Part shown: piece after piece, positions 29,626-52,318 of the stretch
Position numbering within the stretch: the stretch's first letter is position 1
Layout of the letters: every line of letters begins with the position of its first letter
NCBI GenBank assembly: GCA_904377855.1
Contig: CAJFGS010000005.1
Coordinates: 30,261-94,260, forward strand
Reading direction: 5' to 3'
Length of the DNA stretch: 64,000 bases
Source: Candidatus Avimonas merdigallinarum
GTDB taxonomy: Bacteria > Bacillota > Clostridia > Oscillospirales > Acutalibacteraceae
Program-made: the position numbers and the translations under genes
The notes under the pieces: model-generated
Databases searched by the model: none
Told to the model about the DNA's origin: nothing
The model's input: only the letters and a program-made list of their open reading frames with translations

Positions 29626-31284
29626 TCAGCGGTAATACACCGCCAGTTCGGAAATCCCGGTATAGGTCCAGGTGCCGCCCGGGGTACCGATGATCCGGAT
29701 CCCGTCGCCGTCGATTTCGTCGAAGGTGAGGGTGTAGGTGGTGAAAGGCTCCACGTTCGCGTCGTAGGAATACTCGGGGGAGACGGTAAGCCCCTCCACG
29801 TCGACCCATTCGAACCCGCGCCGCACCTGGACGCGCAGATCGGTAAAGAACCCGCCTTCCGCGGCGACGTTGCCGGTGGTGTATTCCACGGTGTTGAAGT
29901 TTTTGTAATCCGAATAGGTGTAGCCCCAGAAATCCTCGTCTTTGTTTTCGCCGGTCCAGCTGTCCTCGGCCGAGGTCTTATCCTCGTCGTTAAGGACAAA
30001 TTCCTTCCCGTACCGGCCGCTGCGGGTATAGGGGACGGCGTCCTCCAGGGCGAGGTTTTTGTCGGATTTCGCATTGGACGCGCCCTCGGGATCGTAGGGC
30101 TCCACCGTCAGCTTGCGGGCAGTGAAGCGGTACTGCTGCGCGCCCCCGGCAAAGGTGGCGGATAGCACCCACATCTCCGTCCCGTCCTCGCTGATGAACT
30201 TGGAGGGGATGGTGCAGGCATAGCCGCCGTGCTTATCGGCCGTCCAGGGATAGCCGCCGAAATCCTTCTGCAAAAAGAGCTTCCAGGGGCCGTAGGGGGT
30301 GGGGGACTCGTAGAACTCGAAGGTATATTCGGTCCAGGAGGTGTAGATATACCGGTCGAGCGGCTTATTGTACACGATGCTTCCCTGGGAAATCACCGAC
30401 ATGTTGTTCGCGCCGGTGTAAGCCGGGTTGACGTTGGAATACACCCGCCTCTCGTCATGGAGGACCGCCTGGCGCTCGGCGATGTCGCTGCTCCACAGCG
30501 GCTGGCCGTCCCCGTCGGTGCCGGCGAAGAACTCCCACTGGGAGCGGTCCTGGACGGCGTCCTTGGGTACGCGGGCGAGGTACAGGTCCACCGGATCGAT
30601 CACCCGGTTGGTAAAGGAATCCCGCCAGTTGTTGTCCAGGCCGTAGGCGTACACATAGTCGTCGGGGCAGTTCTCGCTGTTCTTCCCGTAGTCGAGGAAC
30701 ATGACGGTGGTAAAGGTGTAGTTGTCGAACATGGGCTCGTCGGTCCCCGTCCAGGTCAGGCCCTTGTCGGTGGACTTATAGATGGAGGCGGCGGGCACGT
30801 CGTCAAAGATGCCGATGGTGGTTTTCCGCAGGTCCTGCACCGCCAGATACAGCACCCCGTCCACGCAGACCATGCCGGTGGGCTTGCGGTTGTACTGGGT
30901 GGGGTCGCTCCAGACCTTCGCCACGTCGTCGGCCCAGGCCAGGTTGGTGCCGGTGAGGCTGTTGTCCCACGGGTTCCCCCGCACCCGGCCCACGACAATA
31001 TCCTGCCAGGAAGCGGAGGTATTCAGCCCTTTGCCGTCGCCGTTGGCGACATACAGGAAATCATCGTCCGCCCAGGCGGAAGGCCAGAGATCCCCGTCGC
31101 TCAGCGGGATGGAGACGGTGTTTTTCTCCTCGATATGCACGGTGGAGAAGAAGGTGCTGTTGGTTTCGCTTTCCACAACGGATGGCGTTTCTTTCATGGT
31201 GGAACCTCCTAAATTACAGCCAGATATAAAGAGGATGGCTGCACAGGCCATAGCGGAAATGGCGGCGCTTTTTCTCTTTCGCAT
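29626..31284 (-). CDS. Lipoprotein with DUF4185 (GH183)-like propeller and C-terminal galactose-binding-like domain
   Basis: 552 residues. The signal peptide ends in lipobox ISGC, so the protein should be anchored outside the cell. Residues about 60-400 show a repeated-blade layout: GDLWPSAWADDDFLYVANGDG, YNRKPTGMVCVDGVLYLAVQ, SIYKSTDKGLTWTG, DYVYAYGLDNNWRDSF, DLYLARVPKD, YIYTSWTEYTFEFYE and PTPYGPW. I read this as a DUF4185 domain, a family with proven endo-D-arabinanases (GH183). Residues 420-552 (FNTVEYTTG, DLRVQVRRG, GIRIIGTPGGTW, ELAVYYR) look like an F5/8C carbohydrate-binding fold. Family call by memory; a general propeller hydrolase is the alternative. Confidence 0.68.
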   Translation of the reverse strand: MRKRKSAAISAMACAAILFISGCNLGGSTMKETPSVVESETNSTFFSTVHIEEKNTVSIPLSDGDLWPSAWADDDFLYVANGDGKGLNTSASWQDIVVGRVRGNPWDNSLTGTNLAWADDVAKVWSDPTQYNRKPTGMVCVDGVLYLAVQDLRKTTIGIFDDVPAASIYKSTDKGLTWTGTDEPMFDNYTFTTVMFLDYGKNSENCPDDYVYAYGLDNNWRDSFTNRVIDPVDLYLARVPKDAVQDRSQWEFFAGTDGDGQPLWSSDIAERQAVLHDERRVYSNVNPAYTGANNMSVISQGSIVYNKPLDRYIYTSWTEYTFEFYESPTPYGPWKLFLQKDFGGYPWTADKHGGYACTIPSKFISEDGTEMWVLSATFAGGAQQYRFTARKLTVEPYDPEGASNAKSDKNLALEDAVPYTRSGRYGKEFVLNDEDKTSAEDSWTGENKDEDFWGYTYSDYKNFNTVEYTTGNVAAEGGFFTDLRVQVRRGFEWVDVEGLTVSPEYSYDANVEPFTTYTLTFDEIDGDGIRIIGTPGGTWTYTGISELAVYYR

Positions 31285-31306
31285 GGCATTCCCGTCCTTT
31301 CTTGGG

Positions 31307-33202
31307 TCAGCGGTAATACACCGCGAGCTCCGTCACAGTGGTGTACCGCCTGGAGCCGCCCGGCCGCCCGATAATCCGGATGGCGTCGCCGGAAATCTCG
31401 TCAAAGCGGATGGTATAGGTCGTATTGGAGCCGGTGCTCATGGTCTTGGGATAATTGGGGGATACCGAGCCGTTTGACACGTTCACCCATTTGCCGTTCT
31501 GCCGGACCTGGACGCCGAGGGTGGCAAACCAGCCGCCGTTGTTTTTCATCTCGCCGGTGGTGTACTCGATGGTATTGAACCGGCAGATCTTGTTAAAGCT
31601 GTATCCCCAGCAGTCGATATCCTTCATTTCGCCGGTCCAGCTCTGCTCCTCGTATTCGACGGAACCGTCGTTGAGGCGGTGGGGCCGCCCGTTCCCGTTG
31701 CTGGTGCTGATGATCACCGGGTTCAGGCTGTCGTCCATCGCCAGGTTGTTGGAGCCCTTGGCGTTGTTCGCCTGCGTTTTGGGGGCGAGGGACACCGTCA
31801 TCTTCCGCATATTGTAACCGTACTGCTGGACTCCGTCGACAAAAGTGTTGGAAATGATATACATTTCCAGCCCATTGGAGCTGATGAACTTGGAGGGGAT
31901 CACACAGCCGTAGCCGCCGTACTTCTGGCTATCCCAGGGATAGGAGCCGAAATCCTTGCGCGCGAAAAGGTTGAACGGGCCGTAGGGGGTGGGGGACTCG
32001 TAAAATTCGTAGGTATATTCCGTCCAGGAGGTGTAGATGTAGCGGTCCAGCGGCTCGTTATATACGATGCTGCCCTGGGAAAGCACCGACATGTCCCGCA
32101 CGCCGGGCACGCCGTCGGTCACCCGCTCATACACCCGGCGGGTATCGGTCAGCACCGGCTTGCGGGCGTTGATGTCCTTGCTCCACTGGGGGGAAGAAGA
32201 GGTCCCGGAGAAGAATTCCCACTTGGAGCGGTCCATGATGCTGTTCGCCGGCACCCGCGCCAGGTACAGGTTGACCGGATCGTCCACCTTCCCGGAGAAG
32301 GAATCCCGCCAGTTGTTGTCCAGGCCGTAGGCGTAGACGTAGCCGTCCGGGCTGTTTTCGTTGTCCTTGCCGTAGTCGAGGAACATGATGGTGGTGAAAA
32401 CATAGTTGTCGAACATCGGCTCGGAGGTGCCGGTCCAGGTCTTGCCCTTGTCGGTGGACTTGTAGATGGAGGCGGCGGGCGCTTCGTCGAACAGCCCGTC
32501 GGAGGTGGAGCGCAGGTCCTGCACCGCCAGGTACAGCACCCCGTCCACCGAGACCATGCCGGTGGGCTTGCGGTTAAACTCGGAACCGGACCAGATCTCG
32601 GCGACGCTGTCGCCATAGGCCAGCCCTTCCCCTTTTATGCCGGTGGAAGGGGTGCCGCTGATACGGCTGACCACGATATCCGAATTGACGCTCCCGAAGC
32701 CGGTGCCGTCGCCGTTGGCGACATACAGGTAATCGTCGTCCGACCAGGCGCCCGGCCAGAGGTCGCCGTTGCTTCCCGGGGCGGTATAGGTGTTCCGCTC
32801 CTCAATTTCCACCGAGCCAAAGAAGGTGCTGGTGATATCGTCGTCGGTAGAGACCGTATCCAGCGGCGTGCCGGAGGATGCCGGGGGCGACGTCTGGGAG
32901 GAGTCGGAGGAACCTGGGTCGGATGAGGAATTGTCGCCCCCTCCCGATCCGCTGTCCGGAACCGAGCCGCCGGTCCCGCCGGACGGATTGGAAGAGGCGC
33001 CGCCCGTCCCCGTGGTGCCGCCTTCCCCCGTCGTCCCGGTGCCGCCGGTACCGGTGGTGCCGTCGGCACCGGAGGACGTGGGAGAAGAGCTGGGATCCGA
33101 CGGGGTGGATTCCGTGTTCCCGCCGCAGGCGGTCAGGAACAGCAGGGCGCCGCAGAGCAGGCAGGCTGTCAGCGGGCGCAGCCGGTAAAACAGACTTTTC
33201 AT
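31307..33202 (-). CDS. Second DUF4185 (GH183)-like lipoprotein, paralogue of its neighbour
   Basis: 631 residues. Lipobox LTAC follows a hydrophobic signal segment, then comes a linker of about 95 residues made of Gly, Ser, Thr and Pro that lifts the catalytic part off the surface. The rest follows the paralogue at 29626 nearly motif for motif (GDLWPGAWSDDDYLYVANGDG, YVYAYGLDNNWRDSF, YIYTSWTEYTYEFYESPTPY) and ends in the same F5/8C-like domain. Tandem duplication is evident; the linker is the chief difference. Only 22 bases separate the two genes. Function by inference: endo-acting hydrolase on extracellular glycan. Confidence 0.68.
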   Translation of the reverse strand: MKSLFYRLRPLTACLLCGALLFLTACGGNTESTPSDPSSSPTSSGADGTTGTGGTGTTGEGGTTGTGGASSNPSGGTGGSVPDSGSGGGDNSSSDPGSSDSSQTSPPASSGTPLDTVSTDDDITSTFFGSVEIEERNTYTAPGSNGDLWPGAWSDDDYLYVANGDGTGFGSVNSDIVVSRISGTPSTGIKGEGLAYGDSVAEIWSGSEFNRKPTGMVSVDGVLYLAVQDLRSTSDGLFDEAPAASIYKSTDKGKTWTGTSEPMFDNYVFTTIMFLDYGKDNENSPDGYVYAYGLDNNWRDSFSGKVDDPVNLYLARVPANSIMDRSKWEFFSGTSSSPQWSKDINARKPVLTDTRRVYERVTDGVPGVRDMSVLSQGSIVYNEPLDRYIYTSWTEYTYEFYESPTPYGPFNLFARKDFGSYPWDSQKYGGYGCVIPSKFISSNGLEMYIISNTFVDGVQQYGYNMRKMTVSLAPKTQANNAKGSNNLAMDDSLNPVIISTSNGNGRPHRLNDGSVEYEEQSWTGEMKDIDCWGYSFNKICRFNTIEYTTGEMKNNGGWFATLGVQVRQNGKWVNVSNGSVSPNYPKTMSTGSNTTYTIRFDEISGDAIRIIGRPGGSRRYTTVTELAVYYR

Positions 33203-33248: not shown

Positions 33249-34337
33249 TTAGATGACTTCCAGGTAATCCTTGTCCGCCAGCGGGGGGAAGGGAGCGGTC
33301 GGCAGGGTCTGGTACCAGAAGGCCACCGAAGCGATGTCGTCCTGCAGGGGCAGGTACCGGCCTCCCTCCCGCCAGCCGAGGGCCTGGATGGTGACCCGCA
33401 GATCCGTCTCAAAGCGGATGGGATCGGTGATGTGCCAGCGGTACAGCCCGAACCGCATCTGGCTGCTGTACAGCTTGTTCGGCGTGATCACCTGGTGCAG
33501 GCCGGAATAGGGGGTGGTGAAGGGGACGTATCCATCGTGGGTGACGGGGTTTTCAAAATTGTAGGATCCGCAGAAATAGTCCTCGGTGCCGGTGCCGCAG
33601 ATGGTGGGATATTCGCCGTCGCCGTCCATGTAGAACTTGATTTCGCCTTCGCCCCACCAGCCGCAGTTGTTGACGCCCCAGGCCATGTAGGTGCCGACAT
33701 ACTGGCCGCGGCCCTTCACGCCGTCCAGGATGGTGTAAACTTCCTTGTAGGGCAGGGGGTTGACCCGGTTGAAGCGGGCGTGGAAGTACGCACAGTCCTC
33801 CGGGATCTCGGTCAGGGTGTAGTCGATCTGATAGTAGTAGGTCACCGGTTCCGCGTCCCGGTTTTCCAGGGTGATGCGGCAGCTCTTGCGGAAGGGCATC
33901 TGCCAGTAGCAGTTGAACGCGCTGCCCGGATTGACGCAAACCGCCAGGGAAGAAAGCTGGGCGTACTGGTTCCAGCCGGAGCAGAAGAAATCGCCGACCG
34001 GCGCTTCCACCGAAGGATTCTCCTGGCCGTCCCAGTACATCCGGATGATGGTGTTGCGCCATTTGCCGGTGGGGGTCATCCAAATGTGCTGGATACAGCC
34101 CATCCCCTCAATCGCGGCGATCTCAAAGGTTTCCCCGGCGGGGATGACGATATAGGGATTGACCTTCCAGCCGGTGCCCAGATCGCGGGCCGCATAGCGG
34201 GCGCTGCCTTCTTCCAAGGGGCACATGCCGCCCTTGCCCTTCTCCCCGGTGAAATTTTCCGGGCAGATGGAACGGGTGCGGGCGTCCGAAAGACGCGTCA
34301 GATCTCCCATTGAATTGCAGATTCCGTTGAATTTCAT
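33249..34337 (-). CDS. DUF2961 / GH172 family glycoside hydrolase
   Basis: 362 residues, without a signal peptide, so probably cytoplasmic. Seen: GICNSMGDLTRLSDARTRS at the start, GWKVNPYIVIPAGETFEIA, GMGCIQHIWMTP, WDGQENPSVEAPVGDFFC, NCYWQMPFRKSCRITLEN, CGWWGEGEIKFYMDGDGEYP and CGTGTEDYFCGSYNF, all matching DUF2961, now GH172, whose known members split alpha-D-fructofuranosides or alpha-D-arabinofuranosides. The two acidic residues in GEGEIKF and TGTEDYF are candidates for catalysis by family analogy. It leads the minus-strand operon; start 34337 follows GAAAGGA at a wide spacing. Confidence 0.82.
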   Translation of the reverse strand: MKFNGICNSMGDLTRLSDARTRSICPENFTGEKGKGGMCPLEEGSARYAARDLGTGWKVNPYIVIPAGETFEIAAIEGMGCIQHIWMTPTGKWRNTIIRMYWDGQENPSVEAPVGDFFCSGWNQYAQLSSLAVCVNPGSAFNCYWQMPFRKSCRITLENRDAEPVTYYYQIDYTLTEIPEDCAYFHARFNRVNPLPYKEVYTILDGVKGRGQYVGTYMAWGVNNCGWWGEGEIKFYMDGDGEYPTICGTGTEDYFCGSYNFENPVTHDGYVPFTTPYSGLHQVITPNKLYSSQMRFGLYRWHITDPIRFETDLRVTIQALGWREGGRYLPLQDDIASVAFWYQTLPTAPFPPLADKDYLEVI

Positions 34338-34529: not shown

Positions 34530-34547
34530 TGTGACATCAATGTTACA
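34530..34547. promoter_or_regulatory. LacI-type operator 1, at the start of the GH172-GH183 transcript
   Basis: TGTGACATCAATGTTACA is a palindrome with 7 of 9 pairs matched. It covers the expected start of the minus-strand transcript and shares its core with sites at 35970 and 36168. Confidence 0.6.
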
Positions 34548-34550
34548 TCC

Positions 34551-34579
34551 AGCATACCCAAGGAAACGAAAAAAGTCAA
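34551..34579 (-). promoter_or_regulatory. Promoter of the GH172-GH183 operon
   Basis: Minus strand TTGACT (34579-34574) and TATGCT (34556-34551) with a 17-base spacer. Confidence 0.7.
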
Positions 34580-34675
34580 TATAGAATTTCAAAAACAGGG
34601 ATATATTTGTAATAAATTCCATTTTACAAACGATTGATTATGTATATAGCACAAATTTTTATCCCAAAAATCGAT

Positions 34676-34705
34676 TTGACATGTGACACTGCTGTGTGAT
34701 ATAAT
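34676..34705 (+). promoter_or_regulatory. Promoter of the LacI-family regulator, with an operator-like spacer
   Basis: TTGACA (34676-34681) and TATAAT (34700-34705) are 18 bases apart. The spacer holds TGACACTGCTGTGTGA (34684-34699), an imperfect palindrome with 6 of 8 pairs, a possible autoregulation site. The DNA around it, 34560-34740, is markedly AT-rich. Confidence 0.75.
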
Positions 34706-34766
34706 CCATCGCAGACAGAGAGGTGCGTAGACATAGCCCGAATGATTACGGGTTGGAGGCGGCTTT

Positions 34767-35786
34767 ATGAGTAATATCTATGAAATCGCGAAAAAGACCA
34801 AGCTTTCCCCGTCTACGGTGGCGCGTGCCCTCAGCGGGCGGGGATACTGCAGCCAAAGGGCGCGGGAGATCGTACTGAAAGCGGCAGAGGAAATGAATTA
34901 TGTACCCTCCCAGGCGGCCAAAACCCTTCGCAGCAACATCACCAACAAGATCCTCCTCTGCATTCCGGATATTTACAACCCCTTCTATTTCCGGATGATT
35001 AAGGGGGTCGGGGATATCTGCGAAAAGTTCCAGTACCGGACAATCCTGGTACATACCAACCACTCGTTCGAGAAGGAAATCCAGACGGTGGAATCCATGC
35101 GGGAGAAGTTTGCCGACGGCCTGATTATGGTGTCCTTCAACTTCAACGAACCGCTGATCGAGCGGATCAAGCGGTGCGCCGTACCGGTCGTGCTGACCAA
35201 CTATTACGAGGATTACAGCGAAAAAAGCAATTTCGACTGCGTTTATGTGGATCACACCAAGGCGACCTACCTCGCCACCAACCACCTAATCCAGAACGGG
35301 CACCGGCAGATCGTTTTCGTCGGCGGCAGCCGGGAGGAGCAGACAGGCGGCGAACGGCTGCAGGGGTATATCAAGGCGCTGGGCGCCAGCGGCCTCCCGT
35401 TTCAGGAAGAGTACTTCCTCCCGGCGGATTTCCGGCGGGAACTGGCCCGGGATAAATTCCGTGAATTTCTGGATTCCGGCCGGCCGGTGTCGGCGGTGGT
35501 CGCAGCCAACGACCTCATGGGGGAGGGGGTTATCGATGTCTGCCATGAGCGGGGACTCCGGGTCCCGGACGACCTCTCGATCGTGACGCTGGACAACACC
35601 GACTACTGCACCTGTATCTATCCCAACCTGACCTCGGTGGATATGAAGCAGGAGGATATTGGCGCAATGGCGGCGGAGCTGCTGTTCGAGCGGATTCGAA
35701 ACCACCGGGGCTTCCGGAAAAGCGTGGTTCTGGAGCCGGCGTTGGTACCCCGCGGCTCGGTAATGGCGCATAAGGCGGATCTGTAA
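34767..35786 (+). CDS. LacI/GalR-family transcriptional regulator
   Basis: 339 residues. The N terminus has the LacI helix-turn-helix (IYEIAKKTKLSPSTVARALSGRG) and hinge (NYVPSQAAKTLRSN), followed by a periplasmic-binding-protein-like sensor domain from about residue 60 (NKILLCIPDIYNPFYFRMIKG, DGLIMVSFNF, VAANDLMGEGVIDVCHERGL). It lies between the divergent enzyme and transporter arms and is the obvious local regulator. Base composition is lower in GC than its neighbours. Operator-like sites with a common core lie in both promoter regions. The inducer is probably the imported sugar (inference). Confidence 0.93.
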   Translation: MSNIYEIAKKTKLSPSTVARALSGRGYCSQRAREIVLKAAEEMNYVPSQAAKTLRSNITNKILLCIPDIYNPFYFRMIKGVGDICEKFQYRTILVHTNHSFEKEIQTVESMREKFADGLIMVSFNFNEPLIERIKRCAVPVVLTNYYEDYSEKSNFDCVYVDHTKATYLATNHLIQNGHRQIVFVGGSREEQTGGERLQGYIKALGASGLPFQEEYFLPADFRRELARDKFREFLDSGRPVSAVVAANDLMGEGVIDVCHERGLRVPDDLSIVTLDNTDYCTCIYPNLTSVDMKQEDIGAMAAELLFERIRNHRGFRKSVVLEPALVPRGSVMAHKADL

Positions 35787-35824
35787 TTGTTCACAAATAA
35801 AATGAAAGAAATTTTAAGAATGTA

Positions 35825-35853
35825 TTGACAAATTTCGTTGTCGGCACTATGAT
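35825..35853 (+). promoter_or_regulatory. Promoter P1 of the ABC operon
   Basis: TTGACA (35825-35830) and TATGAT (35848-35853) with a 17-base spacer; far from the first gene, so its transcript would carry a leader of more than 500 bases. Confidence 0.65.
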
Positions 35854-35969
35854 GAAATCGAAGTCAGAACGAAGTCAAAGTGATGTTGTTTATATTTGGC
35901 ACAATTTTGTTGGTAGCTGTGGAGAAAACCGCCAGGCATACCCAAAAGTTGTGCTTGTTTTAGAGGAAT

Positions 35970-35987
35970 TGAGACATCGATATCACT
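35970..35987. promoter_or_regulatory. LacI-type operator candidate in the leader
   Basis: TGAGACATCGATATCACT agrees with operator 1 at 13 of 18 positions and is centred on ATCGAT. Confidence 0.45.
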
Positions 35988-36117
35988 TTCTTGCGGTTCA
36001 CAAGGAGCTGTAAGGGGGAAAGAGCAAAAAATCAGCTGAAACGGCCGAGAAAAATTGCTGTTAATGCACATCGGTTGAAATAAAATAGAGGCTTTAGACA
36101 ACTTCATTCGACAAGCT

Positions 36118-36146
36118 TTGACGAATTGAGAGGGAGGGCCAATTAT
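36118..36146 (+). promoter_or_regulatory. Promoter P2 of the ABC operon
   Basis: TTGACG (36118-36123) and AATTAT (36141-36146), spacer 17 bases. The -10 is weak. The operator at 36168-36185 would lie just after the transcription start. Confidence 0.45.
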
Positions 36147-36167
36147 CCGCGGTGCGAAGGCACGTTG

Positions 36168-36185
36168 TATGACATCGATGTTATT
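36168..36185. promoter_or_regulatory. LacI-type operator candidate downstream of P2
   Basis: TATGACATCGATGTTATT agrees with operator 1 at 14 of 18 positions; its core ACATCGATGT (36172-36181) is a perfect palindrome with the central CG usual for LacI-family operators. Confidence 0.6.
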
Positions 36186-36393
36186 TTGACTTGGGGGGTG
36201 TCGTCCGCCACACTGCCGCCGGACCCGGCGGTTCCCCGGCTGCCTGTGCAGCCGGCTCCCTGGATTTCCGCGGAGCTTTTCTGTGATTGGGAAGGCCCGC
36301 GGAAAGGTTTGTATGGTTTTCAATTTGGACGCAGAAACCCTGCGTCTGCATCCGGAATATCCGGAAATATTTCTGAAAAGGAGAGATTACCCA

Positions 36394-37875
36394 ATGAAAA
36401 AAATCGCAAGATTGTTCAGCGTGCTTTGCGCGGCGACCTTGGTGGCAGGGTTCGCGGCCGGCTGCGCGCCGGGCGCCGAAGACAGCACGCCGGGCGGAGG
36501 CGACGGCCAGGAAACCGTTACCATTACGCTGGCGAGCTGGGAGACCAACGCGCTGAAAGCGCCCTGGATGGACAAGTTCATGGAAGATCACCCGAATATT
36601 AAAGTGGAGCTGGCTGAGGAAGGGAAATGGCTCGGCACCGAAGACCTGGCGCAGCTGGCGGCGGCCAGCAAGATGCCGGACATCATCAACGTGGAGAACA
36701 TTTACACGCCGGTCAAGAACAACTGGCTCATCGACCTGTCCTCGTATTATGAGGCGGACGAAAACAAGGCGATTTACGAAAACTTCATCGAATTCGGCTC
36801 GATCGGCGATAAGCTGTATGTCCTGCCGAGCAACGTGTTCCTGCATGGGATTAAGGTAAACCTCACCCTGCTGGAGGACCTGAACATCGAGAAGCCTGGC
36901 TATGACTGGACCATCGACGAATTTATGGACATTATGGAAGCCGCGTCGGTGCCGGGCGAATCCATTGGCGCCAACAACATCATCTGGCTTATGAAGCACC
37001 TGCCGGCGCAGATGAACGACGACCTCGGCTGGGCGACCTACAATTACGAAACCCAGCAGTATTCCCTCGGCAGCGAGTGGATCGAGACCGTGAACATGAT
37101 GAAGACCATCGTGGACCGGGATTACGTCATCTGGGAAAACATCGACGCCATGGGCCTGCCCGCCAACTTCGAAGAAGGCTCTGCGGAGCAGGAAGCGCTG
37201 ATTGAACAGCGCAACGATTACCTCATGCAGACGGTGGGCACCACCGAGAACCCCTGGCCGCTCGGCAGGGTCGCCTTCCAGGAAGACTTCTCCTGGACCC
37301 TGCGGTTTGACAAGACCGACCCGGCCTACACCGGCTTTGAATGGGACTATTATCCTTTCCCGTCCTCGGGTGAAGGCGACGTATCCCGCCCGGGCCTGAG
37401 CGTGGACTATTACGGCATCACCACCAGCTGCGAGAACCCCGACGCGGCGTGGGAGCTCATCCGGTACATGAGCTATGACCTGGAAGGCTTCCGCGACAAG
37501 GTGGACATCATCAACAACTACGATAAAGCGGCCACCGCGGAGAAATACCCGGAAATCGCCGCCGACCTGCCGGACGCCATCGAATCCCTGTCCCTGCCGC
37601 CGATCAACGATCCCGAGGCGATCGAGCTGTGGAAGAGCATGGACGTCGGCTACAAGCCCGGCATCGATTATATGCTGGAGAACTTCGGCCGCGGCTATGT
37701 GGACTGCTGGCGGATTGTGCCGGAGTATCCCAACACCTGGGAAACCCTGGTGACCAACCAGGTGACGCAGAATATCCTGTACACCGGCTCCCAGACCGCC
37801 GCGGACATCGCCCAGACCCTCCAGGATACCATCAACTCAACGACGGAGCGGGCCTGGAACGACGTCACCGGCTGA
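36394..37875 (+). CDS. Sugar ABC transporter substrate-binding lipoprotein
   Basis: 493 residues. The signal peptide has an AAGC lipobox (VAGFAAGC), followed by a short Gly/Asp/Thr linker and a family 1 solute-binding domain: VTITLASWETNALKAPWMDKF, HPNIKVELAE, DLAQLAAASKMPDIINVE, and the C-terminal half from about residue 230 onward. Such proteins capture oligosaccharides outside the membrane and hand them to the permeases. AAAGGAGAG precedes ATG 36394. A hairpin without T run follows and may raise its level relative to downstream genes. Ligand unknown; locus context suggests arabinan-derived oligosaccharides. Confidence 0.9.
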   Translation: MKKIARLFSVLCAATLVAGFAAGCAPGAEDSTPGGGDGQETVTITLASWETNALKAPWMDKFMEDHPNIKVELAEEGKWLGTEDLAQLAAASKMPDIINVENIYTPVKNNWLIDLSSYYEADENKAIYENFIEFGSIGDKLYVLPSNVFLHGIKVNLTLLEDLNIEKPGYDWTIDEFMDIMEAASVPGESIGANNIIWLMKHLPAQMNDDLGWATYNYETQQYSLGSEWIETVNMMKTIVDRDYVIWENIDAMGLPANFEEGSAEQEALIEQRNDYLMQTVGTTENPWPLGRVAFQEDFSWTLRFDKTDPAYTGFEWDYYPFPSSGEGDVSRPGLSVDYYGITTSCENPDAAWELIRYMSYDLEGFRDKVDIINNYDKAATAEKYPEIAADLPDAIESLSLPPINDPEAIELWKSMDVGYKPGIDYMLENFGRGYVDCWRIVPEYPNTWETLVTNQVTQNILYTGSQTAADIAQTLQDTINSTTERAWNDVTG

Positions 37876-41857: not shown

Positions 41858-42733
41858 ATGTCCAGTTTCCAAGGCAGCAAAATCAACCCCAGCCGGTTCA
41901 GCCTGTCCCAGGTGAAGATTTACGCTTATCTTCTGCCGCTGGCCGTGGTGATGCTGCTTCCCATCATCTATATCTTTTCCACGGCGTTCAAGCCAATGGA
42001 CGAGCTGTTTGCCTATCCGCCCCGCTTTTTCGTGCAGAGGCCCACGCTGGAAAATTTCTATGACATCTCCTCCTCGATTGCCGCCTCCGGCGTCCCGCTG
42101 TCGCGGTATCTGTTCAACAGCGTGCTTTCCTCCCTGCTGGCGGTGGTGTTCACCCTGGTGATTTCCCTGAACGCGGGCTATGTGCTTTCCAAAAAGCAGT
42201 TCCGCGGGAAGGGCCTGCTCTTCACCATCAACACCATGGCGCTGATGTTCGTCCCGCAGGCGGTGCAGATCCCGCGGTACCTGATTGTGGAAAAGACCCA
42301 CCTCATCGACCAGTTCGTGGTGCTGTTCCTGCCGCTGCTGGCCATGCCGGTGGGGCTGTTCCTGGTCAAGCAGTTCATCGACCAGGTCCCGAACGCGCTG
42401 ATTGAGGCCGCCCGGATCGACGGGGCGGGGGATTTCCGGATTGTTTACAGCATCGTCGCCCCGATTGTAAAGCCGGCGCTGGCGACGGTGGCGATTCTGG
42501 CCTTCCAGAACTCCTGGAACAACGTGGAGATCTCCACCTATTATGTGGACAACGACCTGATGCGGACCTTTGCGTTTTACCTCTCCAGCCTGATTGTGGG
42601 CATGGGGAACACGGTGGCTGGCCGGGGCGTCCTGGCTGCCGCGACCCTTATTATGTTCGTCCCGAACCTGATTATCTTTATCTTCATGCAGAACAAGGTG
42701 CTCAACACCATGGCGCATTCGGGGATCAAATGA
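41858..42733 (+). CDS. Sugar ABC transporter permease (UgpE/AraQ type), first pair
   Basis: 291 residues, six hydrophobic segments, EAA motif EAARIDGAGDFRIVYSIVAPIVKP. The N terminus LSQVKIYAYLLPLAVVMLLPIIYIFSTAFKP is typical of the second permease of carbohydrate uptake type 1 importers. GGAAGGAGAGAAGCCCAGA precedes the ATG. It partners the permease at 40893. Confidence 0.92.
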   Translation: MSSFQGSKINPSRFSLSQVKIYAYLLPLAVVMLLPIIYIFSTAFKPMDELFAYPPRFFVQRPTLENFYDISSSIAASGVPLSRYLFNSVLSSLLAVVFTLVISLNAGYVLSKKQFRGKGLLFTINTMALMFVPQAVQIPRYLIVEKTHLIDQFVVLFLPLLAMPVGLFLVKQFIDQVPNALIEAARIDGAGDFRIVYSIVAPIVKPALATVAILAFQNSWNNVEISTYYVDNDLMRTFAFYLSSLIVGMGNTVAGRGVLAAATLIMFVPNLIIFIFMQNKVLNTMAHSGIK

Positions 42734-42786
42734 GGACGGGAACGGCAAAGGGAAAAGACCGTTATGTCCGAGAAAGGAAGGGAGCC

Positions 42787-44820: not shown

Positions 44821-47077
44821 CAGGATAAAAGCGAAACGGTGGCTGCTTTGCGCGGCTTCCCTCCTCGGCGTGGCCGCCCTCCTGACCGGGAGCGCGGTGC
44901 TGGGGGCGGAGGACGAGGCGGAAGAGATCGCCCCCCTCCTCCCGGAGGCCAGCTACGACTATACGGTGAAAAAGGACATCGAGGGGACGGCGCAGAGCGA
45001 GACGCTGCTCGAAACCGACCGGCTTGTCTGCGAGAACGACCGCCTGGCGCTTTATGTGGACGAGGAGGAGTTCATCCTCAAGGTGCTGGATAAGCAGGGG
45101 GATTACCTCTGGTCCAGCGGCGCGGCGGAAAACGAGGCGCAGCAGATGACCGGCACCTGGCGGCGTTTCTCCCAGGCGTTCCTGACCATGGATTACTTCA
45201 ATTCCACCGGCGCGAGTCTGCGCTCCTCCGCCCGGTACAGCAAGGAAACCGCCGACCTGGAGTATACCGGGGACGGCCTGGCCGCCACCCTGCGGTTCCA
45301 GGAACCGGACGCCACCGTCCGCGTTTACATTACCCTGACCGACGAGGGCTTCTCCGTCCGGGTGCCGGACGACGAAATCGTCTTCAATAAAGAGGAAAAC
45401 AAGCTTGCCAGGCTGTATGTCATGCCTTTCCTCGGCTCGGTCTACGCGGACAGCATCCCGGGCTACTTCTTCATCCCGGACGGGTGCGGCGCGCTGATGC
45501 GGTTTGAGGAGCCCAACACCTACAATTCCTCCACCCTCCTGCGGGTGTACGGCACGGATTACAGCGTCCAGGCGCCGACCGCCTACCAGAACGGGCTGGC
45601 GCCCACCCCCGTCCGGAACCTGCTTTTCCCGGTCTACGGGGCCGTGCACGGCTACAACCAGAACGGCTTCATGGGGGTGATCACCGGCGGGGAGGCCTAT
45701 TCCGGCTTTGAAATCAGCCCCGCGGGGGTGAAGATCGACTTCCACTGGATGTCCCCCGTCTTCATTTACCGGGAGCAGTACCGCCAGTCCACCGGCTCGT
45801 CGGAGGGCTTCAGCGTGGTGCAGCAGACCCCGAACACCGTCAACGCCGAAGTGACCTACACCCTGCTCAGCGGGGAAGACGCCAGCTACGCGGGGATGGC
45901 GGAGGCCTACCGCGGGCAGCTCCTGGAGCAGGGCGGCCTCCCGGAGAAGCAGGAAGCCCTGGAGCATATCCCGCTGTACGTGCAGGCGTTTATGGCGGAC
46001 CAGGCTTCTTCCCTGTTCGGCACCACCACCAAGGTGTTCACCACCCTGGAGGATGTGACGGACTGGGTCGGCCGGCTGCGGGAGGAAGGGATCCCCAACC
46101 TCCTGGTTTCCCTGTACGGCTTTGAAAAGGGCGGGTACAGCGGCGGGGACGCCGGCAGCTATAAGCTGGAGAGGCGCGTGGGCAGCGAAAAGGAGCTCGA
46201 AGCGCTTTACAACACCCTGAACACGGCGGGTTCCGGGCTCCTGCTCAGCAAGGAATTCCTCCGCGCCTATGAAGGCCAGTACAAGGAAAGCGGGTTCCTG
46301 TACGCCATCAACCGGGTGTTCACCTATACCCCGGACACCGGCTACCTGTTCGACCGCCGGTACTATCTGGACGCGCCCACCGTGTCCCGCCTGGTGGAGT
46401 CCTATACGTCCCTGCCGTCCTATAAGCGCAACGCCGCCCTGCCGGGGATCGGCAGCGCCCTGTACAGCAATTTCAAGGAAGGGCAGGAGATGTCCCGCGC
46501 CGACATGCTGGAGGCGACGCAGGAAAACCTGAAGGCCCTGCGGGAAGCCAGCGGGATTGTCGCGCTGGAGGCGCCCTCCCAGTATGCGCTGGCGTATGCG
46601 GACGTCCTCTACAACGTGGACATGCAGCATTCGCGCTACATCTTTGAAACCGACACCGTCCCCTTTGCGCAGATGGTGACCGGCGGGCACATCCAGAGCT
46701 TCGCCCCCTGGCAGAACCTCAGCGCGGGCGGGAGCTCGGCCATCCTCCAGATGATCGATTACAACACCTATCCCGCCTACCTGCTCACCGAAGCGGCGTC
46801 GGACGAATTTGTCCAGTGCCACACCAACACGGTGTATTCCTCCCGCTTCGACGACTACCTGCAGGAGATTTCCGAGGTATACAAGACGGTGGACGCGGTG
46901 CTCTCCCAGGTGTCGGGGGCGGCGGTCGTGGGGCGGAGCTGCCCTGAGGACGGCGTCTCGGTCATCCGGTACGACAACGGCCGGACGATCCTGGTGAATT
47001 ACAACAGCTACGAAGTCGAGATTGACGGCGCCACCGTCCCTGCGGAGCAGGCCGTCTGCATCCAATCGATGGAATAA
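44813..47077 (+). CDS. DUF5696-type exported protein
   Basis: 754 residues. Signal segment with about 20 hydrophobic residues, then a beta-rich domain (LVCENDRLALYVDEEEFILKV) and, from about 380, what looks like an alpha/beta barrel (YVQAFMADQASS, VTDWVGRLREEGIPNLLVSLYG, VGSEKELEALYNTL, DRRYYLDAPTVSRLVESY). I assign DUF5696 from memory of this layout next to Yip1 and ABC genes. A hydrolase-like barrel outside the cell fits glycan trimming, yet no reaction is known to me. Coupled by overlap to the Yip1 gene. Confidence 0.72.
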   Translation: MINRIKAKRWLLCAASLLGVAALLTGSAVLGAEDEAEEIAPLLPEASYDYTVKKDIEGTAQSETLLETDRLVCENDRLALYVDEEEFILKVLDKQGDYLWSSGAAENEAQQMTGTWRRFSQAFLTMDYFNSTGASLRSSARYSKETADLEYTGDGLAATLRFQEPDATVRVYITLTDEGFSVRVPDDEIVFNKEENKLARLYVMPFLGSVYADSIPGYFFIPDGCGALMRFEEPNTYNSSTLLRVYGTDYSVQAPTAYQNGLAPTPVRNLLFPVYGAVHGYNQNGFMGVITGGEAYSGFEISPAGVKIDFHWMSPVFIYREQYRQSTGSSEGFSVVQQTPNTVNAEVTYTLLSGEDASYAGMAEAYRGQLLEQGGLPEKQEALEHIPLYVQAFMADQASSLFGTTTKVFTTLEDVTDWVGRLREEGIPNLLVSLYGFEKGGYSGGDAGSYKLERRVGSEKELEALYNTLNTAGSGLLLSKEFLRAYEGQYKESGFLYAINRVFTYTPDTGYLFDRRYYLDAPTVSRLVESYTSLPSYKRNAALPGIGSALYSNFKEGQEMSRADMLEATQENLKALREASGIVALEAPSQYALAYADVLYNVDMQHSRYIFETDTVPFAQMVTGGHIQSFAPWQNLSAGGSSAILQMIDYNTYPAYLLTEAASDEFVQCHTNTVYSSRFDDYLQEISEVYKTVDAVLSQVSGAAVVGRSCPEDGVSVIRYDNGRTILVNYNSYEVEIDGATVPAEQAVCIQSME

Positions 47078-47100
47078 CCGGAAAGGAGGGGAAAGCCGGC

Positions 47101-48051
47101 GTGAAAGTCATGAAATATTCCACACGGAAGAAGCTGTTCGGTTTCTGCCTGATCCTGCCGTGGCTCATCGGGTTCCTGGTGTTTTTGGTTTACCCGCTGT
47201 CCCAGACCATCCTGTACAGCTTTTCCAACGTTACCATTACCCCGACCGGCACCCAGACCACGCCGGTGGGGCTGAAGAATTACACCGACGTTCTGTTTAC
47301 CGACCCGGACTTTACCCTGGGGATTCCCACCTATCTCCAGCAGATGTTCTTTATGGTGCCGATGATTGTGGTGTTCTCCCTGCTTTTTGCGCTGATGCTG
47401 AACAGCCACATCCGCGGCCAGCGGATTTACCGGGCGATTTTTTTCCTGCCGGTTATCCTAATCAGCGGCCCGATCCTGGAAAAGGTACGGGACGTGGGGG
47501 CGACCGAGCTCCCCGGCGTGGGCGATTTCTTTGTCTTTGAATTTATCAACACCCAGGTGCCGTCCCTTCTGGCGGCCCCCATTCAGTATATCATCCAGAA
47601 CATTGTGCTGATTTTCTGGTTCAGCGGGGTGCAGATCCTGATTTTCCTGTCCGGCCTGCAGAAGGTGGACCGCTCGCTGTACGAAGCTTCGATGGTGGAC
47701 GGCGCCTCGTCCTGGCAGCAGTTCTGGAAGATCACCATCCCGATGGTCAAGCCGTTTATCCTGCTGATTGCGGTGTACACCGTGGTGGACATCTCGATGT
47801 CCTCCCTCAGCCCGTTTATCAGCGTGATTAAGGACGGGATGTTCGCCCCGTCGCAGGGCTTCGGCTTCTCCTCGGCGGCGTCCTGGCTGTACTTCCTGTT
47901 CATCCTGGCGGCCCTGGCCATTGCGTTCCTCGTCTTCGGCCGGAAGGAAAAGGATATCCTCAAGCAGAAGGAAAAGGATCTCCGCAAGCGCCGCCGCCGT
48001 TTGGCCCGGCAGCAGAAACGGCTGGCCAGGCGGTATGGGGTCAAGGGGTAA
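47101..48051 (+). CDS. Sugar ABC transporter permease, second pair (first subunit)
   Basis: 316 residues, six hydrophobic segments; EAA motif EASMVDGASSWQQFWKITIPMVKP. It ends in a very basic tail (KEKDLRKRRRRLARQQKRLARR) of about 40 residues, unusual for a permease of this type. GAAAGGAGGGGAAAGCCGGC precedes the GTG at 47101. It pairs with the permease at 48082. Confidence 0.9.
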   Translation: MKVMKYSTRKKLFGFCLILPWLIGFLVFLVYPLSQTILYSFSNVTITPTGTQTTPVGLKNYTDVLFTDPDFTLGIPTYLQQMFFMVPMIVVFSLLFALMLNSHIRGQRIYRAIFFLPVILISGPILEKVRDVGATELPGVGDFFVFEFINTQVPSLLAAPIQYIIQNIVLIFWFSGVQILIFLSGLQKVDRSLYEASMVDGASSWQQFWKITIPMVKPFILLIAVYTVVDISMSSLSPFISVIKDGMFAPSQGFGFSSAASWLYFLFILAALAIAFLVFGRKEKDILKQKEKDLRKRRRRLARQQKRLARRYGVKG

Positions 48052-48081
48052 CCGTTTTTCATGAAAGGAAGGGTAAGCCGC

Positions 48082-49032
48082 ATGACAAAATCGCGTTCGT
48101 CCCGCCTGGCGTCGAAGGTGCGGGTGAGGCGGCTGATCACCGGCTCCGGCGGCAAAGCGTCGATCCTGTCCCGGGTGATCATCTATATCCTGCTCACCGG
48201 CGTCAGCTTTACGTTCCTCTATCCAATCCTCTGCTTCCTTTCCGCCAGCGGGAAGGACGCGTACGACCTGGTGGATCCCCTGGTGCGCTGGATTCCCAGC
48301 CAATTCAATACCGATAACTTCGTCAAGGCGTATAACGCGCTGGGCGGTTACAAAACCGCGCTGACCACCCTGGTGTGCATGGGGATTATCGCCGTGGTGC
48401 AGACCGCCGTTTCCGCGATGATCGCGTACGGGTTTGCCAAGCACGATTTCCCGTTCAAGAAGATCCTGTTTGGGCTGATGATAGCCACCTTCTTTATCCC
48501 GAGCCAGGTATCCTTCCTGCCGGAATACGTGATGTTCACCTCATACAGGCTGGATAATTCCATCCTGCCGGTGCTGCTCCCCACCCTTCTCGGGCAGGGG
48601 CTCAAGCAGTCGATTTTCATCCTGATTTATTACCAGTTCTTCCGGATGTCCCCGCCCTCGCTGGACGAGGCCGCGTCGATCGACGGGGCGAGCCAGCTGG
48701 GGATCTTCCTGAAAATCAACCTGCGCACCGCGACGCCGGCCACCATTGTCGTCTTCATCTTCTCCCTGGTGTGGAACTGGAACGACACCTCGGCGGCGGA
48801 CACCTATTTCGGCAGCGACCTGGTCACCCTCCCGCTGGCGCTCGAGCAGTTCCGCGATAACTTCCTGCGGATGTATCCCTCGGTGGATACCAGCAGCATC
48901 GAGGCCCAGCTGAACGAAGGGATCGAAATGGCGGCGGCCGTGCTTTCCATCATCCCGCTCCTGCTGATTTACGTCCTGGTGGAACGCAAGCTGATTGAAA
49001 GCATTGACAAGAGCGGGATTACCGGGGAATAA
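48082..49032 (+). CDS. Sugar ABC transporter permease, second pair (second subunit)
   Basis: 316 residues. The EAA-type loop reads DEAASIDGASQLGIFLKINLRTATP. ATG 48082 is preferred to the in-frame ATG 48061 because GAAAGGAAGGG lies eight bases ahead of it. The N terminus is strongly basic (KSRSSRLASKVRVRRL). It presumably works with the permease before it and one of the two binding proteins; which binding protein pairs with which permease set is open. Confidence 0.9.
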   Translation: MTKSRSSRLASKVRVRRLITGSGGKASILSRVIIYILLTGVSFTFLYPILCFLSASGKDAYDLVDPLVRWIPSQFNTDNFVKAYNALGGYKTALTTLVCMGIIAVVQTAVSAMIAYGFAKHDFPFKKILFGLMIATFFIPSQVSFLPEYVMFTSYRLDNSILPVLLPTLLGQGLKQSIFILIYYQFFRMSPPSLDEAASIDGASQLGIFLKINLRTATPATIVVFIFSLVWNWNDTSAADTYFGSDLVTLPLALEQFRDNFLRMYPSVDTSSIEAQLNEGIEMAAAVLSIIPLLLIYVLVERKLIESIDKSGITGE

Positions 49033-49108: not shown

Positions 49109-50602
49109 ATGAAAACCGTGAAAAAGGCATTGTCCCTGGTTCTGTCCCTCTCCATGGTGTTCGCCGCGTCGGCGACGGCGTTTGCCGCCGAGCCCGGCAC
49201 TGTCTATGAGTGGGATATCAACAACTTCTGCACCGGCGGCGATTTTGAAGACGCGCCGGCCGGCGCCCTGCCCACCCTGGAGGCGACGCCGGCAGACGAC
49301 ACAGGGCTAGAGGCGACCGGCGGCTGGTTCTCCAACATATGGGATATTCCTGGCACTGTCGCGGAAGGCGAAGGCTTCAATGGCGGCGACGCCCTGAAGA
49401 TTGCCGGCAACGGGAGCAGTCCCTACGGCGCGGCGTTTTACAAGCTGCCGGTGAGCGCCGAGGAATTCGGCGATAAGGACGTCATTGCGGTTTCCTTCCT
49501 CTACAAGCTCTCCGACGCGATGAAGGAAGGCGGCGTCCAGCTCCACGCCCATATCATTACCGGGAATTCCGTAACCGCTGCAGGCGAGCAGATTATCGGC
49601 ATCAAGAACGATCCGGGCGAGAATATTACTTACGGCATCACCGAGGTCGGCACCCCGGTAGGGGACGGCTGGTACCGCGTGACCGGCACCATCGCCTGCG
49701 AAACATTCGGCGACCGCCAGAGCCTGCGGCTGTTCGCGGACTTCCGCCAGCCGGAAGGGGTCCTCGGCAGCGACGCGTACGTCCTGTTTGACGACGTGCA
49801 GGTCGGCGAGGCGGCCCTGGCCGTGGACGCCGACGCGCAGGAGAACCGCAGCACCACCAACCTGATCAAGGCCGGCGACTTCGAGGATTACGGCCTGGGC
49901 GAGCAGCTTGCCACCACCTATGACGACAACGGCTGGGGCTCCACCACCTGGGATTATGAGTCCACCTCCATCATGCGGGACGGCGATTCCAAGGTCCTCC
50001 GCCTGGCGGGGAACGATTCCCTGGCCTACGGCGTGGCGCTGTACCAGCTTCCCGAACTGACGGCAGACCACACCTACCGCCTGTCCTTCGACTACAAGTT
50101 CATCGACAACACCGACGAAATCAGCCTGCAGGCCCATGCGGAAATCCTCAACGACGGGGCCGTGCAGACCCTGGGCGCCGGCGGGCTGTACAACATCAAC
50201 CTGCTCACCAACCCCGGCGAGGAGCTGGACAACGGGTATACCCGCGTGACCATGGACTTCACCCCCTCGGCGTTTGAGACCTCGCTGTTCACCGACCTGC
50301 GGTTCTTCATCCAGCTGGGCGGCGCCGGCGCCGACACCGGCATCTACCTCGACAACGTCTCGCTGTACGATCTCGCGGACGTAGACGAGACGGGCGACAC
50401 CACTACGACCGTGGAGGGCGGTTCCACCACCACGACCGTGGAGGGCGGCGCCACCACAGCGACCAACCCGACGACAGAGCCGACGGACGCTGACGGTACG
50501 AACGATCCGGATACCGGCGTTGCTTCCGCCGTTGTCCCGGCCCTGCTGCTGACGGCCGCTTCCGCCATGGCGATCGGGGCGTCCCGCCGCCGCCGCGGAT
50601 AA
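49109..50602 (+). CDS. Surface protein with two carbohydrate-binding-like domains and sortase-type tail
   Basis: 497 residues. Signal peptide with AFAA cleavage site. Two similar beta-sandwich modules of about 180 residues follow: NNFCTGGDFEDAPAG...ALKIAGNG and TTNLIKAGDFEDYGLG...VLRLAGND, each with an aromatic YGAA/YGVA strand and a DNVxL/DDVQV ending, the layout of CBM4/9-like jelly rolls. Then a Thr-rich linker with a repeated TTTTVEGG, a DPDTG motif, a hydrophobic stretch and RRRRG, which resembles a variant sortase signal. AAGGAGGTCACTGT precedes ATG. It should display glycan-binding modules on the wall. Confidence 0.82.
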   Translation: MKTVKKALSLVLSLSMVFAASATAFAAEPGTVYEWDINNFCTGGDFEDAPAGALPTLEATPADDTGLEATGGWFSNIWDIPGTVAEGEGFNGGDALKIAGNGSSPYGAAFYKLPVSAEEFGDKDVIAVSFLYKLSDAMKEGGVQLHAHIITGNSVTAAGEQIIGIKNDPGENITYGITEVGTPVGDGWYRVTGTIACETFGDRQSLRLFADFRQPEGVLGSDAYVLFDDVQVGEAALAVDADAQENRSTTNLIKAGDFEDYGLGEQLATTYDDNGWGSTTWDYESTSIMRDGDSKVLRLAGNDSLAYGVALYQLPELTADHTYRLSFDYKFIDNTDEISLQAHAEILNDGAVQTLGAGGLYNINLLTNPGEELDNGYTRVTMDFTPSAFETSLFTDLRFFIQLGGAGADTGIYLDNVSLYDLADVDETGDTTTTVEGGSTTTTVEGGATTATNPTTEPTDADGTNDPDTGVASAVVPALLLTAASAMAIGASRRRRG

Positions 50603-50632
50603 TCTGTCCCGTTAAGGGAGGAGGCAAAACCC

Positions 50633-52318
50633 ATGAAAAAAATAATCAGCCTGGTTGCAGCGGCCCTCGTGCTGCTGACGTCTGCCGCCATCCCGGCGGC
50701 GGCTGAGAACCAGTCGGGCACCGCATACCGGGTCACCGCCGGAGAAAACTTCTGCACCAGCGGGACCTTTGAGTCGGTGCCGCTGACCGATCCGGGAAAA
50801 CTGCCCCAGGATGGCACCTATGAGGAGCTCACGGAGACCCTGGGCTGGCGCACCAACAAGTTCGACTATCCGACCGTCAGCATTGCGAACGAGGGCTACC
50901 AGGGCGGGCGCTGCCTGAAAATTGCGGGCAACGGCGAAAACCAGTACGGCGCCGCCTATTACATCTTCCCCACTGGGAATATCCAGCGCTCGGAAACCTA
51001 CCAGGTCAGCTTCATGTATAAGGTGACCGACAACCTGACCAAGACCAACCAGCTCCACTGCGACGTCATGGACGGCGGCTGGGGCGACGTCCACGACATC
51101 ATCGCCGGCCTGGCGCCCCTGCCCGGGGAAGAGCTGGAGGACGGCTGGCGGAAGGTGACCGGCACCTTTGTGGTGGAATCGCCCGGCTCCTTCAAGGCGA
51201 TCCGCTTCTTTGCAGATTTCGCGTACAGCGGCTCTATGCTCGGCGCCGACGACTACCTGCTGATAGACAACGTGGAGGTTTCCAAGCTGAGCCTGACTGC
51301 CGGCACTACCGAGGCGGTGAACCTCTCCTCCACCAACCTGGTGAAGGGCGGCGACTTCGAGTACAAGGAAATCGACAGCCTGTACGATCCCGCCTTCGAT
51401 GTAAACGGCTGGTGGACCGTGGACGGCGACAAGATGGCCTCCACCGTGGTCGAGGACGGCGGCTCCAAGGTGCTGCAGATGCAGGGCAACATGATGCTCA
51501 AGTACGGCTCGGCCTATGTCAATTTCCAGGAGAAGCTGCAGGCGGGCAAGACCTACCGCCTGATGTTCGACTACAAGTTCCTGGGCACCACCCGGGAGGA
51601 CAGTTTGCAGGCCCACGTCGCCTTCATGGCGGACGCGGACATGCAGGTGGGCAACCCCGGCGGCTGGAGCAACGTCAACCTGATAAAGAACGACGTCGGG
51701 GAAACCCTCTCGAACGGCTATAAGCGGGTGATTGTGGAATACACCCCCACGGCGTTCGAGGCGGAGGCGATTTACGGCCTGCGGCTGTTCATCAACCTGG
51801 CGCAGCAGCCCGCCGGCTTCGGCATCATGTTTGACAACGTCCGTGTGAGCGAAGTGCTCGGCGCGGCCAGCAGCGAAGAGACGCAGCCCCCTTCGGGCGG
51901 CGGGGACGACGAGCCTTCCGACGAACCGTCGACTCCGGGCGACGAATCTTCCGATCCCGACAGCTCGGACGTATCCGGTGAGACGACCACCGATCCCACC
52001 GATACCGGCGACGGTACCACCGGGGATGAGACCAGCACCACCGGCGACGGCAGCGAAACCGATTCCTCGGTGACCGATCCGGCCAATCCGGTTGGCGGGG
52101 ACGACGGGGAGTCGTCTTCCGGCGGGCTCCCCGGCTGGGGGATCGCGCTGATTGTGGTGGCCGTGGTTATCGTTCTTGGCGGCGGCGGGTTCTGCCTCTG
52201 GTACTTTGTGATCCGGCCGAAAATGGGCGGGACCACCCCTCCGGACGGCGGGGAAACCCCTCCCGATGACGGCGCTTCCCCGTCGGACAACGGGACGCCG
52301 CCCGCGGACGCGGAATAA
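50633..52318 (+). CDS. Membrane-anchored paralogue of the preceding surface protein
   Basis: 561 residues. Signal peptide (AALVLLTSAAIPAAA), two modules that follow the neighbour's plan (ENFCTSGTFESVPL, CLKIAGNG, NQYGAAYY; STNLVKGGDFEYKE, VLQMQGN, DNVRVSEV), a linker of about 95 residues rich in Asp, Ser, Thr and Gly, one membrane helix (GWGIALIVVAVVIVLGGGGF), and a short Pro/Asp-rich end. Anchoring differs from the sortase-like tail of its sister. Thirty bases separate the genes, and AGGGAGGAGGC precedes the ATG. Likely glycan capture at the surface. Confidence 0.82.
   Translation: MKKIISLVAAALVLLTSAAIPAAAENQSGTAYRVTAGENFCTSGTFESVPLTDPGKLPQDGTYEELTETLGWRTNKFDYPTVSIANEGYQGGRCLKIAGNGENQYGAAYYIFPTGNIQRSETYQVSFMYKVTDNLTKTNQLHCDVMDGGWGDVHDIIAGLAPLPGEELEDGWRKVTGTFVVESPGSFKAIRFFADFAYSGSMLGADDYLLIDNVEVSKLSLTAGTTEAVNLSSTNLVKGGDFEYKEIDSLYDPAFDVNGWWTVDGDKMASTVVEDGGSKVLQMQGNMMLKYGSAYVNFQEKLQAGKTYRLMFDYKFLGTTREDSLQAHVAFMADADMQVGNPGGWSNVNLIKNDVGETLSNGYKRVIVEYTPTAFEAEAIYGLRLFINLAQQPAGFGIMFDNVRVSEVLGAASSEETQPPSGGGDDEPSDEPSTPGDESSDPDSSDVSGETTTDPTDTGDGTTGDETSTTGDGSETDSSVTDPANPVGGDDGESSSGGLPGWGIALIVVAVVIVLGGGGFCLWYFVIRPKMGGTTPPDGGETPPDDGASPSDNGTPPADAE

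Follow-up and report, generated by a model that had tools for sequence, protein, structure and literature searches.

The window analysed here is a stretch of 64 kb on contig CAJFGS010000005.1 (positions 30,261 to 94,260, forward strand), contig C5 of the 2.53 Mb, 88% complete genome of Candidatus Avimonas merdigallinarum (Clostridia). Between two terminators it carries an island which likely serves the use of D-arabinan or a closely related α-D-arabinofuranoside polymer. D-arabinan is an unusual sugar polymer of mycobacterial-type cell walls. The island consists of a minus-strand enzyme operon, read from 34337 to 29626 (GH172, DUF4185 lipoprotein b, lipoprotein a), and a divergent plus-strand side, in which lacI is followed by ten genes running from a first solute-binding protein (SBP1) to two surface proteins. 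The permeases are of the ATP-binding cassette (ABC) type. The features are as follows.

About 29535..29585, minus strand: terminator of the enzyme operon, a hairpin and T run spotted by eye.
29626..31284, minus strand: DUF4185 lipoprotein a (P0001), 552 residues, predicted endo-acting furanosidase, GH183-like (PF13810, 45.0 bits; lipobox ISGC by eye).
31307..33202, minus strand: DUF4185 lipoprotein b (P0002), 631 residues, an EndoMA1-like propeller with D147/D165 and a C-terminal domain (PF13810, 53.4 bits).
33249..34337, minus strand: GH172 enzyme (DUF2961; P0003), 362 residues, predicted cytoplasmic exo-α-D-arabinofuranosidase (PF11175, 328.9 bits; ExoMA1 8ic8, 431 bits).
34532..34545, plus strand: predicted LacI operator TGACATCAATGTTA, upstream of the enzyme operon (pattern scan; identical in the G008 locus).
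34676..34705, plus strand: sigma-70-like promoter ahead of lacI (12/12 matches).
34767..35786, plus strand: LacI-family regulator (PF00356 and PF13377).
35972..35985, plus strand: weaker predicted operator AGACATCGATATCA (pattern scan).
36170..36183, plus strand: predicted LacI operator TGACATCGATGTTA, upstream of the transport operon (pattern scan; identical in G008).
36391..37875, plus strand: SBP1, solute-binding lipoprotein (SBP_bac_1 by Pfam; G008 orthologue, 1007 bits).
37966..40908, plus strand: cassette gene 1, SBP2, 980 residues, extended at the N-terminus by a long stretch with a weak CBM_35 match (below cut-off) and ending in a solute-binding domain (Pfam).
40893..41834, plus strand: cassette gene 2, ABC permease 1 (permease model, below curated cut-off).
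41858..42733, plus strand: cassette gene 3, ABC permease 2 (permease model, below curated cut-off).
42730..44820, plus strand: cassette gene 4, NHL/TPR/Yip1 membrane protein (Pfam; Yip1 28.1 bits, cut-off 28.6).
44813..47077, plus strand: cassette gene 5, DUF5696 protein, GH129 fold, predicted non-catalytic (482.3 bits).
47101..48051, plus strand: cassette gene 6, ABC permease 3 (permease model, below curated cut-off).
48061..49032, plus strand: cassette gene 7, ABC permease 4 (permease model, below curated cut-off).
49109..50602, plus strand: predicted surface glycan-binding protein 1 (no Pfam match; 249 bits to the 50633 protein).
50633..52318, plus strand: predicted surface glycan-binding protein 2 (CBM_4_9 in two stretches, 51.6 bits; C-terminal membrane segment by eye).
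52359..52386, plus strand: terminator of the transport operon, a hairpin with a 12-pair stem and T run.

The gene set and positions proposed by a first-pass annotation of this DNA were borne out: every gene named is an open reading frame and the domains were recovered by Pfam, among them LacI, the binding proteins (SBP_bac_1 and SBP_bac_8), DUF5696 and the two DUF4185 lipoproteins, which lie above the PF13810 cut-off of 39.5 bits; the terminators also stood. Some entries need qualification. The four genes of the two permease pairs match ABC permease models, all below the curated cut-offs; in the Yip1/NHL protein NHL and TPR were matched but Yip1 falls just under its cut-off; and of the two proposed surface binding proteins, CBM_4_9 was found in the second, whereas the first is linked to it by likeness. 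The DUF2961 enzyme is well above its cut-off of 27 bits, although the accession is PF11175 and not PF11958, and its start, earlier placed at 34622, is most likely 34337, since most listed homologues have 362 residues.

A relative within the genus, G008, shares the gene order of the island from the two DUF4185 genes through GH172, LacI and SBP1 to the seven-gene cassette, on a contig of 113,114 bases, which indicates that the island is not a chance arrangement; in G008 the lipoprotein a orthologue (locus L005) scores 1070 bits. The same island is present in CAJFTG010000002.1 (Candidatus Avimonas caecicola isolate Chicken_7_mag_176). DUF4185 matches occur in the window's own genome and G008 only, of 12 genomes of the genus.

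The two operons appear to share their control. The operator pattern TGACATCRATGTYA was derived from the window itself and scanned with up to two mismatches; four sites were found in the 64 kb, all within 34532-36183, giving eight strand matches where 0.36 are expected, a count reached in 0/100 shuffles. Because the pattern was taken from the window, this count cannot serve as independent evidence; such evidence comes from G008 and the remainder of the genome. Exact matches number two in the own genome and two in G008, always lying ahead of the locus's enzyme operon and transport operon, and we infer that LacI binds at these operator-like sites. A third site in the own genome (G000:C22:19460; L147:8438-9974), with one mismatch, precedes a cupin and GFO/IDH/MocA gene pair and is possibly a further regulon member or a chance occurrence. 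It was not counted, as a rough estimate gives a few one-mismatch sites per genome; a control with the reversed pattern, also considered, gave no matches on either strand in the own genome and one on each in G008.

The GH172 enzyme provides the clearest indication of the sugar. Among solved chains it matches the exo-α-D-arabinofuranosidase ExoMA1 over residues 12-361 far more strongly than αFFase1 (159 bits), 4kq7 (138) or 8ah3 (130), and no signal peptide is seen by eye. The WWGEG and GTGTED motifs are both present, the former in 119/120 listed homologues, and on our reading they contain the two glutamates identified for DgGH172c. In ExoMA1, fructose is blocked by Asn253, where αFFase1 has Gly299; DgGH172a groups with ExoMA1 and DgGH172c lies near αFFase1 (PMC10509167). 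The window enzyme has Asn at this position (eight residues beyond the Glu of GTGTED). In the query and 120 listed of 8000 scored homologues it is Asn in 70, Asp in 50, Ala in one and Gly in none; in 23 distinct GH172 genes of the fetched loci (28 rows, repeats removed) it is Asn in 19 and Asp in two, the motif being missing in the other two (L008 and L024; 139-143 bits). Exo-α-D-arabinofuranosidase activity is therefore predicted from sequence for the window GH172. A partial second GH172 lies on a short contig of the same genome (C59; L051:4990-5589), 89% identical over residues 164-362 and with two in-frame stops.

These observations bear on the idea, previously put forward as the main alternative, that the target is a fructan, difructose anhydride or other α-D-fructofuranoside, with GH172 acting as an α-D-fructofuranosidase. 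The family does include αFFase1, and the own genome has a copy of the import cassette beside a GH32 enzyme, so that fructans are a plausible food for this cell. The gap between the ExoMA1 and αFFase1 scores and the Asn at the specificity position nevertheless weaken it; in addition, the fold of DUF4185 was matched to an arabinanase, and in 8/20 loci the relatives have D-arabinose-type isomerase-like and kinase genes next to them (see below). A fructan target is thus very improbable, and the D-arabinan reading holds better.

The DUF4185 pair belongs to its family at a distance. Canonical members score 128-211 bits on PF13810 (G130, L021, L024), and other weak members in the same order score similarly to the window pair; from sequence, membership is real but distant. 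The model of lipoprotein b has the propeller fold and matches EndoMA1, an arabinanase (the structural alignments cover the structures ranked by Foldseek, and absence from them is uninformative). Its catalytic Asp pair, D147/D165, 18 residues apart, is invariant in 47/47 rows of the subfamily, and endo-D-arabinanase activity is predicted for the two lipoproteins. A broader DUF4185 alignment does match EndoMA1 by sequence. The equation of these proteins with GH183 thus stands as to fold and Asp pair and requires amendment as to their divergence and one changed active-site residue: the third acid is replaced by Gln376, and so the two proteins are labelled GH183-like and are not assigned to the CAZy family. 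In a plasmid search with the divergent DUF4185, four records were obtained, of which one, from the salt-lake Haloprofundus halobius (NZ_CP083667.1), holds a subfamily member that is 47% identical and covers 80% of the query.

The D-arabinan locus of Microbacterium arabinogalactanolyticum encodes EndoMA1/2, ExoMA1 and ExoMA2, and the published model comprises cutting outside the cell, ABC import and trimming by GH172 inside (PMC10509167). The island resembles it in its exported DUF4185 proteins, an ExoMA1-type GH172 without signal and an SBP/ABC importer (export status judged by eye), suggesting the same division of labour. Thus the DUF4185 lipoproteins would cut the polymer outside the cell; the surface proteins, SBPs and DUF5696 protein would hold the released pieces; the permeases would bring oligosaccharides in; GH172 would strip D-arabinose inside; and LacI would repress both operons until a sugar signal arrives. 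This order of events, first proposed from the window sequence, is supported, being published for Microbacterium and having a matching gene for each step. The island differs in its Clostridia host, in the divergent DUF4185 proteins being a tandem lipoprotein pair, and in its additions: LacI with twin operator-like sites, two permease pairs, NHL/Yip1, DUF5696 and surface CBM proteins. PUL42, a polysaccharide utilisation locus of Dysgonomonas gadei (DgGH172, DgGH4185a/b), also combines DUF4185 and DUF2961 enzymes for D-arabinan but belongs to Bacteroidota, with a Gram-negative host (PMC10115798).

Neighbourhoods in other bacteria are largely consistent with D-arabinan. Twenty loci were taken from one short-pattern scan of GTDB species genomes, and the counts refer to the stretches examined. 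GH172 is present in 11/20, nine of these above 400 bits; an isomerase-like gene with an FGGY kinase in 8/20; and a canonical DUF4185 in 6/20 (checked by Pfam for L021), with a seventh, L024, at 128.5 bits by Pfam. A set of GH172, kinase, isomerase-like protein and divergent DUF4185 unites 6/9 Streptomyces loci with that of Subtercola; SBP, permeases and LacI are seen as well in six of the seven (L012 begins at GH172). The Paenibacillus aestuarii locus has a full L-fucose isomerase, kinase and GH172. The Subtercola protein is called isomerase-like because of a weak Fucose_iso_C match (23.7 bits, cut-off 29.3) and its adjacency to the FGGY kinase; a search of solved structures gave no match at E 0.01. 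E. coli FucI acts on D-arabinose. Six Streptomyces loci (L009, L010, L012, L019, L021, L023) combine canonical and divergent DUF4185, GH172, kinase and isomerase-like protein and are candidate soil D-arabinan loci. The Subtercola DUF4185 protein (L011:9878-11884) ends in LGFP repeats, which are found in envelope proteins of mycolate-making bacteria.

Several observations weigh against a D-arabinan function. Nine of the 20 loci show no GH172 in the stretch examined, including four from Nocardia and three from Streptomyces (some are cut by contig ends), and the seven GH172-bearing Streptomyces/Subtercola loci are related rather than independent. P0003-like GH172 is common, occurring in 31/148 relatives; as 25 of these 31 have no DUF4185 match, GH172 alone is no pointer to a polymer. 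The L-fucose/D-arabinose isomerase (PF07881, PF02952) was not found in the own 88%-complete genome. Unlike the Microbacterium locus, the island has neither isomerase nor kinase; one FGGY kinase region, appearing as two frames, lies outside it, and G008 has a fucI-FGGY-fucU-aldolase cluster, PF07881 being present in 6/12 genus genomes. PF04685 (DUF608), which we take to be the GH116 catalytic domain, occurs in 0/12, a further difference from the Microbacterium locus, which includes a GH116 exo-β-D-arabinofuranosidase. A profile of the 47 close DUF4185 rows matched no EndoMA1 or GH183 structure by sequence at E up to 1, giving weak matches only, mostly to sialidase repeats. Finally, Glu243 of EndoMA1 aligns with Gln376, invariant in the subfamily; in a MAFFT alignment the residue facing the Glu of a canonical member is Ser, and neither alignment gives an acid there. 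The cleft residue Trp138 of EndoMA1 is likewise unconserved in alignments of the subfamily.

The altered active site admits two further explanations. In the first, the two DUF4185 lipoproteins bind glycans with weak or no catalysis, the locus only scavenging oligosaccharides freed by others. E243Q left EndoMA1 almost inactive (PMC10509167), and the subfamily has Gln there; the matching change in DgGH4185b, E381A, broadly kept activity (PMC10115798), both catalytic Asp are invariant, and some relatives are the sole recognised DUF4185 of their locus (L007, L011). We consider this quite improbable. In the second, the altered site reflects a different target, another D-arabinofuranose-bearing or related furanoside glycan (lipopolysaccharide, pilin, capsule) and not a mycobacterial-type arabinan, an explanation that partly overlaps the wide wording adopted above. 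The changes at Glu243 and Trp138 would fit it, as would the canonical DUF4185 held in addition by the six Streptomyces loci, as if work were divided between kinds; D-arabinofuranose in some lipopolysaccharides has been named as a possible reason for gut activity, and pilin oligosaccharides were tested (PMC10115798). It sits less well with the LGFP repeats of the Subtercola copy and with loci that otherwise match the published arabinogalactan/lipoarabinomannan locus in GH172, ABC transport, isomerase and kinase. Such a target is on balance unlikely, though GH172 adjoining GH20C in two Avimonas genomes is also in its favour. In these (L134:769-5310 and L129:7748-10845) the cassette lies beside GH172 and GH20C, with an ADP-ribosylglycohydrolase-like gene in L134, which hints at another GH172-linked glycan.

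The transport genes had been taken as specific for the substrate; most of them prove to belong to a cassette that the genome carries several times over, with differing enzymes alongside. Its order is SBP2, permeases 1 and 2, NHL/Yip1, DUF5696, and permeases 3 and 4 (37966-49032). DUF5696 was found in 86/148 relatives at E 0.001, 78 of them over the cut-off, and at least eight times in the own genome (eight scored of 12 first-look candidates). The seven other own-genome loci (L118-L124) all keep the full order, NHL/Yip1 being sometimes split into two genes and in L121 detected by profile only. Matches in the 13 neighbours of these loci that were scanned include GH32, GH28, GH66, DUF4978, PFL-like, GFO/IDH/MocA, nucleoside hydrolase, BNR, DHDPS, SBP and CBM domains; 2/13 had none. 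In 20 loci of other genera (L149-L167, L168), chosen mostly among higher scores and searched with cassette profiles derived solely from genus copies, the complete arrangement is kept in 16; three (L151, L160, L166) are cut by contig ends with the remainder ordered, and one (L168) has DUF5696 without the other cassette genes.

The DUF5696 protein has the GH129 fold. It differs from the GH129 proteins NagBb and ZgGH129/DagB in lying within an ABC cassette and in lacking the Asp that the NagBb quadruple mutant 5wzq carries as Ala, which we take to be one of the catalytic Asp pair; Asp is found there in 0/23 DUF5696 rows. The second NagBb Asp is unalignable by sequence; at a candidate column (residue 553 of P0244) the window has Asn and 14/23 rows have Asp. 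DUF5696 was considered as the missing β-D-arabinofuranosidase and set aside, since it adjoins unrelated enzymes elsewhere and lacks the GH129 Asp. DagB itself has been argued not to be a GH129 member (PMC5698469).

Gram-positive polysaccharide utilisation loci bring together a regulator, an ABC transporter and glycosidases. Among the literature matches listed, neither titles nor the openings of abstracts mention the NHL/Yip1/DUF5696 cassette and its two permease pairs, and DUF5696 appears in no paper of the library searched, most subscription papers lying outside the search. Tentatively, and at somewhat less than even confidence, the cassette could be a new kind of Gram-positive glycan importer, a SusCD counterpart of Clostridia (giant SBP, two permease pairs, NHL/Yip1 membrane scaffold and a retired GH129-fold enzyme now serving as a surface receptor), kept in many copies per genome and re-tooled by enzyme swaps; here it would be coupled to DUF4185 proteins of a new subfamily, able through a changed subsite to open D-arabinan without GH116.

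Among the matches listed by literature searches on D-arabinan in Bacillota or the gut, none dealt with that subject, and the word Firmicutes is absent from the main text of PMC10509167 and PMC10115798. With this island, gut Clostridia gain a candidate system for using D-arabinan, and a divergent branch of DUF4185 is delineated in which one active-site position differs in a way that can be tested. The analysis also brings out an import cassette found repeatedly in genomes of this order and, within the literature searched, without a published description. For work on mycobacterial-type cell walls, enzymes able to open D-arabinan are of practical use. The island varies on the published system in that its endo-enzyme is divergent and its importer broader.

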